A stretch of DNA of 33,103 nt. Source: Bacteroidales bacterium. GTDB taxonomy: Bacteria; Bacteroidota; Bacteroidia; Bacteroidales; UBA932. The stretch is from NCBI GenBank assembly GCA_017960585.1, contig JAGCYX010000024.1, positions 1 to 33,103 of the forward strand, given 5' to 3'. The notes under the pieces were generated by a model. The model saw only the letters and a program-made list of their open reading frames with translations, had not been told where the DNA came from and made no database searches. Position 1 is the first letter of the stretch. The number at the start of each line of letters is the position of its first letter. The position numbers and the translations under genes are program-made. This document shows positions 27,041-31,663 of this stretch, one piece after another.

Positions 27041-28237
27041 ATGGAAATATCCCAACGCGCGCAGAACATGCCGTCTTCCCCGATCCGGAAGCTGGCTCCG
27101 TATGCCGACGCTGCCAAGCGCAACGGCGTTCACGTCTATCATCTGAACATCGGTCAGCCGGACATCAAGACCCCGCAGTGCGGTCTTGACGCCCTCAAGG
27201 CCGTGGACCGTACCATCCTGGAATACAGCCCTTCCGACGGCTACCTGTCCCTGCGCACCAAGATGGTGCAGTACTACGCCGAGTACGGGATCTACCTCTC
27301 TCCGGAGGAGATCATCGTGACCTCCGGCGGCTCCGAGGCGGTGCTGTTCGCGTTCCTGGCCTGCCTGGGGCCGGGCGACGAGGTCATCGTGACGGACCCG
27401 TTCTACGCCAACTACATGGCCTTTGCCATCTCCGTGGGCGCCGTGATCAAGAGCGTCAAGACCAATATCGAGGATGGCTTCCGCCTGCCCTCCGTGGAGG
27501 CTTTCGAGGAGCAGATCACCTCACGCACCAAGGCCATCCTCATCTGCAACCCCAACAACCCGACGGGTTATCTCTATACGCGCAAGGAGATGCAGCGCCT
27601 GCGCGATATCGTGAAGAAGCATCACCTCTACCTGTTTAGCGATGAGGTGTACCGCGAGTTCATATACACGGGCATGCCGTACATCTCCGCCTTCCACATG
27701 GAGGGCATCGAGGAGAACGTGGTGCTGTTCGATTCCGTGTCCAAGCGCTATTCCGAGTGCGGCATCCGCATCGGCTGCCTGTGCACGAAGAACAAGCAGG
27801 TGCGCGACGCGGTGATGAAGTTCTGCCAGGCGCGTCTGTCGCCGCCGCTGCTGGGCCAGATCGTGGCCGAGGCCACGCTGGGAGTGCAGAAGGAGTATCT
27901 GCACGCGGTCTATGAGGAGTACCTGGAGCGCCGCAATTTCCTGATCGACGGGCTCAACAAGATTCCGGGGGTGTATTCTCCCATCCCGATGGGCGCCTTC
28001 TATACGATGGCGAAGCTTCCGGTGGACGATGCCGAGAAGTTCTGCATCTGGTGCCTGCGCGACTTCCAGTACGAAGGGGCCACGGTCATGGTGGCGCCCG
28101 GCGCCGGCTTCTACACCGAGCCCGGCGAAGGCCGCCAGGAAGTCCGCATCGCCTACGTCCTCTGCAAAGAAGACCTCGCCAAAGCGCTTGTCGTCCTGCA
28201 AAAGGCCTTGCAGGCCTATCCTGGCAGGACCGAATGA
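27041..28237 (+). CDS. Class I/II PLP-dependent aminotransferase (aspartate-type)
   Basis: A 398-residue cytoplasmic enzyme of normal length. Key features: NIGQPDIKTP near the N-terminus; SGGSEAVLFAF cofactor-binding helix; NPNNPTG at 170-176; FSDEVYREF with the PLP-N1 Asp; SVSKRYSECGIRIG with the Schiff-base Lys235; and the C-terminal Arg of EVRIAYVL for the substrate carboxylate. Residues 2-15 (EISQRAQNMPSSPI) look conserved in this family, which supports the ATG at 27041 over the one at 27068, although the promoter leaves almost no leader. The amino acid substrate is not certain; aspartate or aromatic amino acids are usual for this subgroup. No pathway partner is adjacent. Confidence 0.93.
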   Translation: MEISQRAQNMPSSPIRKLAPYADAAKRNGVHVYHLNIGQPDIKTPQCGLDALKAVDRTILEYSPSDGYLSLRTKMVQYYAEYGIYLSPEEIIVTSGGSEAVLFAFLACLGPGDEVIVTDPFYANYMAFAISVGAVIKSVKTNIEDGFRLPSVEAFEEQITSRTKAILICNPNNPTGYLYTRKEMQRLRDIVKKHHLYLFSDEVYREFIYTGMPYISAFHMEGIEENVVLFDSVSKRYSECGIRIGCLCTKNKQVRDAVMKFCQARLSPPLLGQIVAEATLGVQKEYLHAVYEEYLERRNFLIDGLNKIPGVYSPIPMGAFYTMAKLPVDDAEKFCIWCLRDFQYEGATVMVAPGAGFYTEPGEGRQEVRIAYVLCKEDLAKALVVLQKALQAYPGRTE

Positions 28238-28390
28238 TCCGGGGGGCGTTCCCACCGGACCCCCTGCGTCGCTCCGCTCCGGTTTTCGCCTATCCCGGTA
28301 GGGTTTAACCCTTCCGCCGCCCCTTCCTGGACTCGCCGGCAAATTATTTTTCTCGCTTCCCGCTCGAAAAACCAATTTGCCGCCTCGTCA
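28238..28390. other. Non-coding GC-rich stretch with a 15-bp hairpin
   Basis: No gene is evident. It contains a hairpin with CGGCAAATT (28337-28345) pairing with AATTTGCCG (28374-28382), and an inner TTTTTC/GAAAAA stem (28347-28352 with 28366-28371). Upstream of it is GC-rich sequence with short G and C runs. Short ORFs across it are shadows without homology I recognise. Confidence 0.5.
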
Positions 28391-28422
28391 CAACGCCCCC
28401 GCACGGGCGGCGGTTGTTTTTT
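28391..28422 (+). terminator. Probable terminator before the left palindrome array
   Basis: An imperfect GC-rich hairpin (CAACGCC... with ...GGCGGTTG, 28391-28416) is followed by six T. It is about 150 nt after the aminotransferase stop and may end that transcript, or be a degenerate outer copy of the array unit that follows. Confidence 0.45.
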
Positions 28423-28428
28423 CGCTGT

Positions 28429-28560
28429 CCGTCCACAAAATAGGCTGTTTTTGTGGATGGACGCCGGTTTTTCTGCCTTCCGTCCACAAATTGGGCTGTT
28501 TTTGTGGATGACGACCGGTTTTTCTGCCTTCCGTCCACAAAATGGGGTGTTTTTGTGGAT
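28429..28560 (+). repeat. Left array: three 51-bp palindromic (REP-like) units
   Basis: The motif TCCACAAAA begins at 28432, 28483 (one base changed) and 28534, exactly 51 bp apart, each paired after an 8-9-nt loop with TTTTGTGGA (28449, 28500, 28551). With flanking CCG/TGG pairs each unit forms a stem of about 12 bp. The 19-bp spacers are also conserved (ACCGGTTTTTCTGCC), so these are repeats, not CRISPR spacers. The same family appears inverted beyond the transposase gene. Hairpin repeats next to a RAYT gene are its expected REP substrate. Confidence 0.85.
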
Positions 28561-28579
28561 GGGGACTATTTTTGCTGAC

Positions 28580-28609
28580 AGGGATTTTTATCTTCGGAGA
28601 AAAAACCCT
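28580..28609 (+). other. Leader hairpin with C(UUCG)G tetraloop before the RAYT operon
   Basis: A 30-nt symmetric hairpin: AGGG/CCCT, a mismatch, TTTTT/AAAAA, a mismatch, then TC/GA closed by TTCG. It differs in sequence from the 51-bp units. A near-match -7 box (TATCATTG, 28609-28616) overlaps its 3' edge, so the hairpin may be an operator-like site or a recombination substrate rather than part of the mRNA. Confidence 0.5.
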
Positions 28610-28616
28610 ATCATTG
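28609..28616 (+). promoter_or_regulatory. Possible -7 box of the RAYT operon (TATCATTG)
   Basis: One mismatch from TAnnTTTG, about 40 nt before the ATG at 28656. The leader is A-rich near the start codon, as usual in Bacteroidota. Confidence 0.35.
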
Positions 28617-28655
28617 TACTGGAGTGAGGCCTAACAAAACTAAAAAACTTTAACA

Positions 28656-29213
28656 ATGGAACAGAATGTCAATTCCTCCGACTCCCAGGGCTCCCTGGGA
28701 ACCCGCATCCAGCAGATTCTGGACGAGCAACGCTCTCTGGCGTATGACGCACTGGATGATCTCATGTACGAAGCGTTTCTGGAAGTGGGGCATGTCCTCA
28801 CGGAGAACGGTGATGCCGACCAGCCCCAGGCCGTAGGCGGGCTGTCGTCTTACGCTCTCCGCCAGATCCGCCAGCATGTCGCCGACGGCAACCTGGCAGA
28901 ATGGTTGTCTGCCGGCGCCGACGGAGACAAGTCGCTGTATCTTCGCGACTTTCTCAACTTCAACAAATTGCAGATGGACGAGCTGAGGGTCCGGTATCCA
29001 CGCGCTTTCTCCAAGTGGACCGAAGACGAAGACGAAGCGCTGCTCGTGTGTTACCGGCAGGAAGCGCAGCAGGGACAAAAGATTCCCTGGGGCCAGATCG
29101 CCAAGCAGCTTCAACGCAATCCCAACGCCATCCGGCTCCGCCTGGAGCACCTTGGCATCAACCTCGGTTCCGATGCCGGTCGTCAGCGCAGACAGGGAGG
29201 GGCCGCGCGATGA
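28656..29213 (+). CDS. Myb/SANT-like DNA-binding protein co-encoded with the RAYT transposase
   Basis: A 185-residue protein. Residues 1-115 are mainly helical, with no family I recognise. Residues about 117-165 fit a Myb/SANT or trihelix domain: FSKWTEDEDEALLVCYRQ (Trp121), an acidic first helix, then IPWGQIAKQLQRNPNAIR (Trp145) and a recognition helix RLRLEHLGI. Such domains bind DNA with regularly spaced aromatic residues. The tail is Arg/Gly-rich. The TGA overlaps the RAYT ATG (ATGA), so the two are translationally coupled. The natural inference is an accessory protein that binds the flanking palindromes or controls the transposase. Third positions are less GC-rich than in flanking housekeeping genes. 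Confidence 0.75.
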   Translation: MEQNVNSSDSQGSLGTRIQQILDEQRSLAYDALDDLMYEAFLEVGHVLTENGDADQPQAVGGLSSYALRQIRQHVADGNLAEWLSAGADGDKSLYLRDFLNFNKLQMDELRVRYPRAFSKWTEDEDEALLVCYRQEAQQGQKIPWGQIAKQLQRNPNAIRLRLEHLGINLGSDAGRQRRQGGAAR

Positions 29214-30214
29214 ACACGGAATCCTCCTGCGAGGCCGCCTTTGCTAAAGGCGGCCCTTTCTGGCATCTCTACACGGATGGCGAGAAGATGGAACTTATCT
29301 TCACCGGGCTCGCCGATTTCCTGTTCGGCATCGCCCTGCTGGGCCTTTGTGCAGCCAGGTTCCCACGGTGCCGGATCTTAACGTTCGCCATCATGAGCAA
29401 CCATCTGCACGTGATACTGGCCGGGCCGGAAGAGGATGTCCTGGCTTTCTTCGCGTTGTTCAAGGAGCGCCTGTCCCGGTATCTGGCCAGTCAGCAGCGG
29501 TATTGCCGGATGCAGAACTTCGATGCCGAACTGTTCCGTATTCCCGATCTGCGCGCCCTGCGCAACGAGATCATCTACGTAAACCGCAACGGCTATGTGG
29601 TCTCGCCGGACTGCACGCCTTTCTCTTATTGGTGGTGCGCCGGGATGTATTTCTTCAACCCGATGGCGGCGCTGCTCCCTTCCCGGACGATAGCATCTCT
29701 AACGATACGTGAACTGCGCGCCATGTTTCATTGTCGGGATGTCGAGTTCCCGAAGCATTTCCGTATCCTCGAGGACTTCCGGCCGAACCCGGTCGAGCCA
29801 TCCGCGCCCATTCTGCTCCCCAATAGCTTCTGCGCCATACGCGAGGCTGAGAACTACTTCCGGGATGCACACCAGTATTTCCGTCGGCTGGGGCGGGACC
29901 AGGAGGCCTTCTCCGAGGTCGCCCGACGGCTCGGTGACCGGATCTTCCTGACGGACGACGAACTGTTTGGCGCCGTGTGCGCGTTCTGCGCCAAGGATTA
30001 TGACAATCCCAACCCGGCCCTGCTGCCTGCGGCGCAGAAACAGGAGGTTGCCCGGCGGATGCACTTCGACTACAACGCCTCGAACAAACAGATTCAACGG
30101 ATGTTGAAATTGTCATCCGCCGCCGTCGATGCCCTCTTCCCGAAACCGGCTCCCACCCTTCCCGGTCCTGGCTCCATCCACAAAAACGGCCAGTTTTGTA
30201 GACAAAAGACATAA
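29210..30214 (+). CDS. REP-associated tyrosine transposase (RAYT, Y1/HUH family)
   Basis: A 334-residue protein from ATG 29210; the frame is open further upstream only as a shadow of the partner gene. The HUH-like metal motif is His65-Leu-His67 in FAIMSNHLHVILAG. The single catalytic Tyr is most likely Tyr123 in NEIIYVNRNGYV, equivalent to the usual Y-I-H-x-N-P-V. The region before (FWHLYTDGEKMELIFTG) and the C-terminal HTH-like end (NKQIQRMLKLSSAAVDALF) resemble RAYT proteins of Bacteroidota. RAYTs cut and join single-stranded REP hairpins and are usually domesticated single copies. The last 13 or so residues (SIHKNGQFCRQKT) are encoded by the first palindromic unit of the right array. Catalytic residues look intact. 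Confidence 0.85.
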   Translation: MNTESSCEAAFAKGGPFWHLYTDGEKMELIFTGLADFLFGIALLGLCAARFPRCRILTFAIMSNHLHVILAGPEEDVLAFFALFKERLSRYLASQQRYCRMQNFDAELFRIPDLRALRNEIIYVNRNGYVVSPDCTPFSYWWCAGMYFFNPMAALLPSRTIASLTIRELRAMFHCRDVEFPKHFRILEDFRPNPVEPSAPILLPNSFCAIREAENYFRDAHQYFRRLGRDQEAFSEVARRLGDRIFLTDDELFGAVCAFCAKDYDNPNPALLPAAQKQEVARRMHFDYNASNKQIQRMLKLSSAAVDALFPKPAPTLPGPGSIHKNGQFCRQKT

Positions 30215-30308
30215 ATAGTGGTTGCCATCCACAAAAACAGCCTATTTTGTGGACGGGCAGCAGAAATACCGGTCGCCATCCACAAAAACGCCCCATTTTG
30301 TGGACGGA
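30175..30308 (-). repeat. Right array: three 51-bp palindromic units in inverted orientation
   Basis: TCCACAAAA begins at 30177, 30228 and 30279, again exactly 51 bp apart, paired with TTTTGTGGA at 30245 and 30296 and a one-base variant (TTTTGTAGA) at 30194. Read on the minus strand the units and spacers (for example ACCGGTATTTCTGC) match the left array. The innermost unit lies inside the RAYT coding end and is the most degenerate. The outer end stops 14 nt from the HD-gene stop, so the array may also end transcription between the two convergent genes. Confidence 0.85.
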
Positions 30309-30321
30309 AGGGGCGGGGCGA

Positions 30322-30942
30322 CTAGGATTCTGCGTCGAAGAAGGTGTCGAAGAGGGTGCGGAGGCGGGGGAGGTCGGCGATGAGGCGGCGGAGGTCGGCG
30401 AGCTTGGCGGCGTTGGGGGATTCGGGGATCCAGAGCCGGAGGTAGCCGCCTTCGGCGTATTTTTCGTGGAGATGGTCGAGGGTGCGCTGCCAGTGCTCCT
30501 CGCGGGCGAGCTCCGGGTAGTGGGCGAAGCCGAACTGGACGGTGCGGCGGATGATGGTTTCCGGCTCGATCTGGCGGTCCGCCTCGGCGATGATGCGCCC
30601 GTAGATGCTGCGCGGCTCGTGGTCGAGCGACGCGCGATGGTCCTCGGCGGCCTGCGCGACGGTCTCGATCTGCTCCGGGGAGAACCAGTGGGGGAGTGCA
30701 GGGTCGGTGCGGATGATGCGGCCGGAGACGAGGTGGTGCGTGGCGCGGTCCTCGCACAGGCCCGTGTCGTGGAAAGCCGCCGCGGCGTAGATCATCTCCC
30801 GGTCCACGGGATAATACTCCGCGAGGGTGAGCGCGTCGCGGATCACGCGCTCCACGTGCGGGCGCTGATGCGCCTTGTCGAAGGAATCGTAGCGGGGGAG
30901 GATCTCCGCCTCCACGTAGGCTTGCAGGTCGGGTTGGATCAT
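30322..30942 (-). CDS. HD-domain phosphohydrolase-like protein
   Basis: A 206-residue cytoplasmic protein. The ATG at 30942 is preferred: the 81-residue upstream extension is antisense shadow. HD-domain metal ligands appear in order as His29 (AHQRPHVERVI), His58-Asp59 (AAAAFHDTGL) and further His/Asp (AAEDHRASLDHE, then IIAEADRQI). The C-terminal part is helical. HD proteins of this size act on nucleotides or related phosphoesters; the substrate is unknown. A near-match -7 box lies 7 nt upstream of the ATG. It is divergent from the TapB-like gene with only 40 bp between the starts and convergent with the RAYT. Confidence 0.88.
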   Translation of the reverse strand: MIQPDLQAYVEAEILPRYDSFDKAHQRPHVERVIRDALTLAEYYPVDREMIYAAAAFHDTGLCEDRATHHLVSGRIIRTDPALPHWFSPEQIETVAQAAEDHRASLDHEPRSIYGRIIAEADRQIEPETIIRRTVQFGFAHYPELAREEHWQRTLDHLHEKYAEGGYLRLWIPESPNAAKLADLRRLIADLPRLRTLFDTFFDAES

Positions 30943-30949
30943 ACGGACA

Positions 30950-30957
30950 CGAAGATA
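30950..30957 (-). promoter_or_regulatory. Probable HD-gene -7 box (TATCTTCG)
   Basis: Minus-strand TATCTTCG, one mismatch from TAnnTTTG, ending 7 nt before the ATG. It implies a leader of only a few nucleotides. Confidence 0.4.
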
Positions 30958-30970
30958 CGGAAAAATTTCG

Positions 30971-30978
30971 CATCTTTG
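30971..30978 (+). promoter_or_regulatory. Probable -7 box of the TapB-like gene (CATCTTTG), leaderless arrangement
   Basis: One mismatch from TAnnTTTG and ending 4 nt before the ATG at 30983, the same spacing as at the aminotransferase gene. The mRNA would start at about the initiation codon. Confidence 0.45.
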
Positions 30979-30982
30979 CAGT

Positions 30983-31663
30983 ATGAAACGCATTCTCCTG
31001 CTTATGCTGCTGCTCCTCCCGGCCCTGTGGGCCCGTGCCGGGGAGCCCTTCACCCCCACGAAAGCCGGCACCACGCTGGTGTTTGAACGCACCAAGGCGA
31101 ACGGGCGTGTCGAATATACCTCCACGATGCAGTACACGGGTGTGCGCCGAGAAGGGGGCAAACTCATCGTCGAGTACACTTTCACGATTCACGGACCCGG
31201 CGGGAACGAACTCTACGGCGGCGCCGCTCCGATGAGCACGACGGTCACCGCCGACGGCACCACCGAACAGGACCTGGGAGCCTCGCTGAAGGCCGTCCTG
31301 CACAATATGTTCCCGGGCGCCGCCCAGGAAGTCGAGACCGTTCCGGCCCGGCTCCCCGCCAACCTGAAGCCGGGCGACCGGCTGCCGGATGCGCACGCCC
31401 GCGTCAAGACCGGCGTCCTGACCCACACCATGGATATCACCGAACGGGAAGTCCTGCGCACCGAGCGGATCACCGTTCCCGCGGGCACCTTCGACTGCGT
31501 GGTGCTGCGCGAACACAAGATAGAGCACGGCGTCGGGCGCGAGCGCGACAACATCTGCGAGAACTGGTACGCCCCGGGCATCGGCCCCGTCCGCCACGAT
31601 TCTTACCGCCTCGTGAACGGAGTTCTGAAGTTGAACGCGCGCGAAGTCCTGAAAAAATATTAA
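30983..31663 (+). CDS. Secreted DUF3108/TapB-like protein
   Basis: A 226-residue protein with a clear signal peptide (MKRILLLMLLLLPALWARA|GEPF). The rest is a beta-rich repeated-strand fold: GTTLVFERTKANGRVEYTS, a middle LKPGDRLPDAHARV, then RTERITVPAGTFDCVVLREH and the ending NWYAPGIGPVRHDSYRL. The pattern of an antiparallel barrel with the ending W-Y-x-P-G-x-G-P-V-R matches DUF3108/TapB-like periplasmic proteins. Exact function is unknown. It is followed at 25 nt by the YjbH-like gene, which has its own -7 box; both are envelope proteins. Confidence 0.75.
   Translation: MKRILLLMLLLLPALWARAGEPFTPTKAGTTLVFERTKANGRVEYTSTMQYTGVRREGGKLIVEYTFTIHGPGGNELYGGAAPMSTTVTADGTTEQDLGASLKAVLHNMFPGAAQEVETVPARLPANLKPGDRLPDAHARVKTGVLTHTMDITEREVLRTERITVPAGTFDCVVLREHKIEHGVGRERDNICENWYAPGIGPVRHDSYRLVNGVLKLNAREVLKKY

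Follow-up and report, generated by a model that had tools for sequence, protein, structure and literature searches.

A probable REP/RAYT system of Bacteroidales whose palindromes differ among lineages and mostly keep a 51-bp pitch

Repetitive extragenic palindromic (REP) sequences and the REP-associated tyrosine transposases (RAYTs) that accompany them are known from different bacteria, and the means by which RAYTs select and propagate their repeats are a standing question. In the passages of the literature cited here, TnpAREP enzymes are reported to process single-stranded REP hairpins and to co-evolve with them (PMC8266576), and REP/RAYT systems with palindromes flanking the gene on either side, evenly spaced REP clusters in one genome and atypical palindromes in Bacteroidetes have also been described (PMC2817692, PMC3116915, PMC6006769). 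Here, we have analyzed a 33,103-nt stretch of DNA from a Bacteroidales bacterium (contig JAGCYX010000024.1 of assembly GCA_017960585.1; hereafter the window), in which a Myb-like gene (A) and a transposase gene (B) lie between two arrays of palindromes. The locus very probably represents a REP/RAYT system, i.e., a domesticated resident transposase of the HUH/Y1 type together with its own palindrome family, the dispersed unit being a hairpin doublet of fixed pitch. A palindrome family matched to the transposase, its dispersal, the 51-bp pitch and a common unit plan were observed directly.

As described in the passages cited, the REP/RAYT systems of Enterobacteria, Pseudomonas and Stenotrophomonas (PMC2817692, PMC3116915, PMC8049555, PMC8266576) share with this locus a single HUH/Y1 gene between palindromes, matched dispersed palindromes and a housekeeping-like retention, and the doublet as probable dispersed unit recalls REPINs, i.e., REP doublets forming hairpins, as presented in the excerpts of PMC3116915 and PMC8049555. 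Unlike the classic systems, the palindromes here have no 5′ GT[AG]G foot, gene B encodes 334 aa compared to the 165 aa of Escherichia coli RayT, and a Myb-like partner is present in one subclade. The REPs of Pseudomonas fluorescens have, in the source text consulted, common spacings of 71 and 110 bp depending on type, whereas a single pitch is found here over many palindrome types. A further likeness is to TnpAY1 subclass 2.6 (Quentin et al. 2018, PMC6006769), which according to the cited parts of that study is found mostly in Bacteroidetes, has atypical flanking palindromes without GTAG as well as copies elsewhere, and carries an NH[LIV]H motif. However, the tyrosine motif given there is YIH[QN]NP instead of the Y-x-NRN found here, the value of 179 in its table, taken as the mean length, differs from the 310-335 aa observed here, and neither a fixed pitch nor a partner gene appears in those parts of the description. 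IS200/IS605 transposons (IS608, ISDra2) probably share the HUH/Y1 chemistry, judging from the likeness of a profile of B to chains in the Protein Data Bank (PDB) over the HUH region only; unlike them, the gene is resident at one locus and gives no sign of a mobile element. A literature search, outside which most subscription papers lay, found no RAYT partner gene and no pitch kept across palindrome types.

In the window, two mutually inverted arrays of three palindromes with a pitch of 51 bp lie on either side of genes A and B, namely a left array on the forward strand (28428-28562) and its inverted copy on the reverse strand at the right (30174-30308). A repeat scan returned three direct copies at 28416-28577 (spacings of 51 and 51) and three at 30174-30326 (51 and 51), and a search for the core TCCACA..TGTGGA located 28432-28457, 28483-28508 and 28534-28559 in the left array and 30177-30202 (one mismatch), 30228-30253 and 30279-30304 in the right one, which bears out the three-plus-three palindromes, exact 51-bp period and inverted arrays of the original prediction. 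The array arms are complementary at 81% over 135 nt. Each spacer is 25 nt long, with GGTTTTTC in the centre of the two left ones (28458-28482 and 28509-28533, forward strand) and an A/T tract of opposite sense in the centre of the two right ones (30203-30227 and 30254-30278, reverse strand). When 28427-28564 was folded as single-stranded DNA, the z-score was -6.46 and none of 200 shuffles was equally good. The arrays had also been said to flank the operon; one array indeed lies on each side, but on the right the first palindrome (30177-30202) falls inside the last codons of B, and the right array is therefore not entirely outside the operon.

The palindromes are dispersed through the parent genome (G000; 2.06 Mb in 113 contigs, 81% complete), which contains 22 exact copies of the core TCCACA-N14-TGTGGA, five in the window and 17 elsewhere, and no match to a reversed control pattern. 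With TCCTCA forms and one mismatch allowed, and with likely chance matches left out (one-mismatch matches on contigs C3 and C42 and the match at C67:3109), 15 dispersed sites were read, consisting of seven single, six double and two triple palindromes, in which nine of ten gaps are 51 bp and the remaining one is 48. Thirteen 25-nt spacers, four from the window and nine dispersed, mostly have GTTTTTC at the centre when oriented T-rich. In a 452-kb sample of G000, partly selected because it held arrays, there were 22 palindromes of the TCCACA type and one of the TCCTCA type. G000 has six further RAYT-like genes (L017, L018, L019, L020, L021 and L022). Because L017, L019 and L021 at least each have their own repeated palindromes (pitches of approximately 51, 52 and 75), several REP/RAYT pairs coexist in a single genome of about 2 Mb; in the 452-kb sample, the palindromes of L017 and L019 gave nine and six matches with gaps of 51 and 52, counts that take in the flanks of these two genes. 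A single palindrome common to all RAYT-like genes of this genome was ruled out, since L017, L018, L019 and L021 have other palindromes.

The match between enzyme and dispersed repeats is also seen in related genomes. In G333, the aminotransferase gene beside the module is 97% identical to that of the window, B is 63% identical, and the arrays are of the TCCTCA type; outside the module, 400 kb of this genome contained 19 exact TCCTCA cores and no TCCACA core, forming eight doublets and one triplet in which all ten gaps are 51 and the spacer is mostly similar. In 399.6 kb of G313, whose module has another palindrome, neither TCCACA nor TCCTCA was found and one copy of its own type was present. 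Dispersed palindromes matching the resident transposase were thus found in three genomes, in G313 by one copy only, and the arrangement in G333 points tentatively to the doublet as the dispersed unit.

Gene B (29210-30214, forward strand) encodes a RAYT-like (HUH/Y1) transposase of 334 aa with a long C-terminal half conserved among relatives, and its start codon lies inside the stop codon of gene A (overlap ATGA). The predicted HUH/Y1 residues His65, His67 and Tyr123 do not vary among the 18 aligned sequences, one of which is that of the window, and all 18 thus have an HUH motif and a single catalytic tyrosine; Tyr123 is followed by N125, R126 and N127, and this Y-x-NRN pattern is likewise invariant in all 18. 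The Pfam family Y1_Tnp was matched at E-values up to 0.1 by ten of the 18 (best 1.9e-4), and a profile of the 18 sequences matched PDB transposase chains 2xm3, 2xma and 2xo6, which we take to be ISDra2 TnpA, at E-values of 0.013-0.015 in the HUH region only. Gene A (28656-29213, forward strand) encodes 185 aa with a C-terminal Myb/SANT-like domain (Pfam Myb_DNA-bind_6, E-value 1.8e-5, 25.3 bits, exceeding the cut-off of 22.9). Its N-terminal part (28656-28850) matched PADLOC PDC-S02 models weakly (best E-value 5.3e-4), and searches of PHROGs and PADLOC gave weak matches to A and nothing stronger. Between G333 and G443, the ratio of nonsynonymous to synonymous substitution rates (dN/dS) was 0.18 over 154 codons of A and 0.12 over 337 codons of B, with 0.03 for the flanking aminotransferase gene and 0.13 for the flanking HD-domain gene; on these low values, purifying selection acts on both A and B in the single pair tested. 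B had no match in 72,556 plasmid records and no confirmed relative in viral contigs. The suggestion of a domesticated REP-propagating unit is accordingly supported, given the dispersed palindrome, the matched RAYT/palindrome pairs in relatives, purifying selection in one pair and the lack of plasmid or viral matches.

The pitch extends beyond this locus. Of 199 genomes from the family, 59 (in 11 of 25 genera) contained relatives of B at an E-value of 1e-20 or better, and of 400 genomes from the genus, 170 did so at 1e-40; in a sample of 247 genomes taken from the order, the 18-row profile found relatives at 1e-20 in two, which both belong to the genus of the window. A scan for palindrome families on both sides of the gene, which requires exact 8-nt arms, was applied to 66 RAYT loci and returned a family in 57 and two or more members in 51; in 40, one palindrome type occurred to the left and to the right of the gene, an arrangement shared with the window. 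Among 144 gaps of up to 160 bp between neighbours, 125 measured 51.0-52.0 and four more 101-102. Since a few long arrays (L049, L038, L056 and L174) supply many of these gaps, the count of loci is fairer: at least one gap of 51-52 occurs in 38 of the 66 (counted from the listing), and clustering of their B sequences at 90, 70 and 60% identity places these loci in 33, 27 and 20 groups, respectively. The same scan found no family of two in any of 72 control windows without a RAYT. For comparison, the classic RAYT model NF047646 was searched in the order, where 109 of 198 genomes matched at 1e-8 (34 above the model cut-off) and none of the listed matches was in the window's family; in the 30 loci returned, which score above this cut-off and belong to other families of the order, none of 43 gaps was 51-52, one was 50.5, and runs of 30 and 32-33 were seen. 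At the E. coli rayT locus, the scan, limited to perfectly matching arms of 8 nt, detected no family of palindromes, and this locus therefore does not serve as a pitch control. Exceptions within the clade of B include 52 in L056, L156 and L019, 75 in L021, steps of 25.5 in L168, 42 beside 51 in L029 (from a metagenome-assembled Bacteroidales genome of sheep omasum), 50 in L017 and L140, and 60.5 in L160. The 51-bp pitch is nevertheless a property of the clade, which is wider than the view from a single locus.

The palindromes themselves differ across lineages (TCGGCCAC, AAAAGCAC, TGTTCCGA, TCCGTAAA, TTGGTGCA, CCGTCCAT, TCTGGCCC, GAGCAGGT and others), and their seeds span 25 to 36 nt at constant pitch. 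When 31 loci were aligned on the middle of the spacer, a common plan was found, consisting of an A/T tract at mid-spacer, an A/T patch approximately 20 nt from it, a GC-leaning, lineage-specific box outside this patch and a GC-rich palindrome centre. The A/T fraction of the central four spacer bases was 0.79 compared to 0.37 beside them, the centre being the richer in 33 of the 38 loci and equal to its surroundings in one; the excess of T over A in the 31-locus alignment is a product of the chosen orientation, whereas the A/T excess is independent of it. Palindrome type tracks the tree of B, with 22 changes against a shuffled mean of 36.9 and none of 200 shuffles as low (18 types, 47 rows), in an analysis where types were assigned by hand from the arms, near-copies favour clustering and some long branches are unsure. 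Some boxes recur on distant branches, such as TCCaCA in L033 and TCCtCA in L039, L043 and L162.

Several observations weigh against a resident REP/RAYT system with a fixed-pitch doublet as its unit. The matches of B to curated families fall below their cut-offs (Pfam Y1_Tnp, E-value 0.036; NCBIfam REP_Tyr_transpos, E-value 3.1e-4 and 20.6 bits against a cut-off of 80), and its identification as a probable RAYT therefore draws jointly on the motif, the palindromes and the weak profile matches. The GT[AG]G sequence is absent from the 5′ foot of the hairpins, the cores being preceded by CCG, CCA, TTG or TCG, and GTGG is confined to the 3′ arm in palindromes of the TCCACA type and missing from those of the TCCTCA type. 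Seven of the 15 dispersed sites in G000 are single palindromes, the 452-kb sample of this genome was not drawn blindly, and a further 137 kb of G333 outside the module yielded, with one mismatch allowed, two doublets (gap of 51) and two singles. Nine of the 66 loci gave no palindrome family and 15 had fewer than two members, in a scan that missed the doublet of L116 and an eight-unit tail in L035. No movement was seen, as the two dispersed doublets for which both flanks were available in G333 and in G443 are present in each of these genomes. The array on contig C40 of G000 is absent in 11 of 11 relatives; this is no clean empty site, because the right-hand neighbour gene is also missing from the available 1.5 kb in all 11. 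In 28 loci with gaps on both sides, the window included, the spacer tracts have the same sense in 19 and opposite sense in seven, with two undecided, and the inverted layout of the flanking palindromes in the window was rejected as a general feature. Finally, A-like genes stand without B at 12 of 20 loci examined (32 genomes matched; the downstream side of L068 is mostly missing), which is why A may have been recruited from a family of solo regulators. At two of the eight loci with such a neighbour (L074 and L075), a short Myb-like protein adjoins a B relative of 27-29% identity. Two solo A-like genes (L065 and L066) have a palindrome, TATCCATTT..AAATGGATA, approximately 44 bp upstream of the frame, which is perhaps an operator.

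In a REP/RAYT system of this kind, B would, like E. coli TnpAREP, bind the palindromes in their hairpin form on single-stranded DNA, would read a lineage-specific box in the stem and would handle two hairpins 51 nt apart together. The copied unit would be the doublet, i.e., palindrome, 25-nt spacer with a central A/T tract and palindrome, which longer arrays repeat. The protein would set the spacing of hairpin centres, perhaps as a dimer or through the long C-terminal half of B, so that the box would be the co-evolving part while the pitch stays constant. A, translated with B, would most likely bind the duplex palindromes or the array by its own promoter and, as a guess, control or steer B. 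It is a tentative proposal, in our view quite possible rather than probable, that this RAYT reads distance by such a protein ruler, leaving hairpin sequence free to change at a fixed pitch, and that a Myb-like second DNA reader has joined it in one subclade. The spacing itself may be a rule followed by the enzyme, as relatives differ in hairpin sequence and mostly keep the spacing, and a clade with many boxes and one pitch may allow the reading of sequence to be separated from the reading of geometry. Natural swaps are available for the study of specificity, such as TCCACA in G000 versus TCCTCA in G443 or G333 with B approximately 62-63% identical. The system also provides a RAYT with a partner gene in its operon and, inside genes, in-frame REP arrays built of 17-codon units.

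The main alternative, which we consider unlikely though far from negligible, is that the pitch is merely inherited from one ancestral 51-bp tandem array through slippage or unequal crossing over, with no reading of distance by the protein. Common descent of the arrays is likely since their units share one plan, and some arrays consist of near-copies, e.g., 11 units in L056 and eight near-identical units at a pitch of 52 in L035 (L035:2403-2800, downstream of a B relative), the latter being, as its units suggest, recent tandem growth. However, the box has turned over many times with the pitch unchanged, the seed span varies from 25 to 36 nt, and, at loci without an intervening gene A, the distance from B to the nearest upstream palindrome ranges from approximately 70 to 450 bp. 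In addition, dispersed doublets, which are not products of local slippage, keep 51 in ten of ten gaps in G333 and nine of ten in G000.

The distribution of the A-B module bears on a second alternative, that the module is a mobile element ending in the two inverted arrays. A stands beside B at eight loci (the window, G443, G484, where A is cut by a contig end, G236, G333, G285, G279 and G313), which form one clade of B (support 98/95). All eight modules adjoin the same class I/II aminotransferase gene (27041-28237, forward strand, in the window), although that of G279 is approximately 5 kb away, and an HD-domain gene (30322-31185, reverse strand) is the other neighbour in five. A is absent from the available stretch at 22 other B loci of the genus (L155-L176) and at 36 loci (L017-L022, L029-L058), some of whose stretches end at contig ends. 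The module is oriented as in the window in G443, G236 and G333 and oppositely in G313, G484, G285 and G279; G308 has A alone, in the opposite orientation. Inverted three-plus-three arrays are found in the window, G333 and G443, and the other A-B loci have fewer palindromes in the stretches read. Of the layout looked for at homologous loci, the arrays are present, the partner is kept in one subclade only, and the three-plus-three arrangement recurs in G333 and G443 without being general. Neither of the outcomes named beforehand as speaking against a link, units confined to this locus or homologous loci lacking both arrays and partner, was encountered. Signs of decay include a short B match in G236 and a broken A frame in G443. 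In G285 (L140), the aminotransferase match is split into three parts, which may reflect a broken gene or an assembly fault.

A mobile A-B module would fit the inverted arrays at its ends and the two orientations beside one gene. It would also fit the synonymous divergence (dS) between G333 and G443, which is 0.71 for B and 0.48 for A and exceeds that of the flanking genes (0.25 and 0.27), hinting that the module was exchanged. In the flank tree, G313 stands beside G333 and G443 while its inverted A-B is very divergent, which suggests either exchange of the module or loss of one of two old versions; this locus (L108), with its long palindromes (GTTACGGAATCGC..), looks like whole-module exchange. 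Nevertheless, mobility of the module appears improbable: no unit at many sites was found, all eight modules, from eight species and one B clade, lie at or within approximately 5 kb of one gene, none of 29 genus loci examined has A at another site, the plasmid and viral searches were negative as given above, and homologous recombination between arrays or flanks accounts for inversion and exchange too. The original suggestion of a small mobile element with the arrays as its ends was not kept after this synteny had been seen. A role of the palindromes as transcription terminators or operator sites, with an incidental likeness to REPs, is very improbable, for although the right array lies at the operon end and some dispersed copies in G000 directly follow stop codons, copies occur at many sites as fixed-pitch doublets matching the resident RAYT type, two arrays are in frame inside open frames, and no Rfam family was found at gathering scores in 28000-30600 of the window.

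Two minor observations concern other partners and the in-frame arrays. In four loci of another genus (g22), a small gene of approximately 115-125 aa follows B (L030:1075-1452, reverse strand, and equivalents in L031, L032 and L033); the L030 copy had no Pfam match, and the gene is perhaps a second, unrelated partner. Two arrays of G000 (L181:1976-2103 on C62 and L184:1957-2084 on C81) consist of three palindromes at 51-bp pitch, i.e., 17 codons, in frame inside related open frames, each of which follows an extracytoplasmic function (ECF) sigma-factor gene; a multiple of three is not required for the pitch, since 52-bp lineages exist. Among eight homologues read, that of G443 has three palindromes of its own TCCTCA type (gaps of 72 and 51), that of G236 two and that of G279 one with a mismatch, and five have none. 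The L181 frame has an outer-membrane barrel domain, and the in-frame array encodes 17-residue repeats (PSTKxAQxVDG..) ahead of the barrel.

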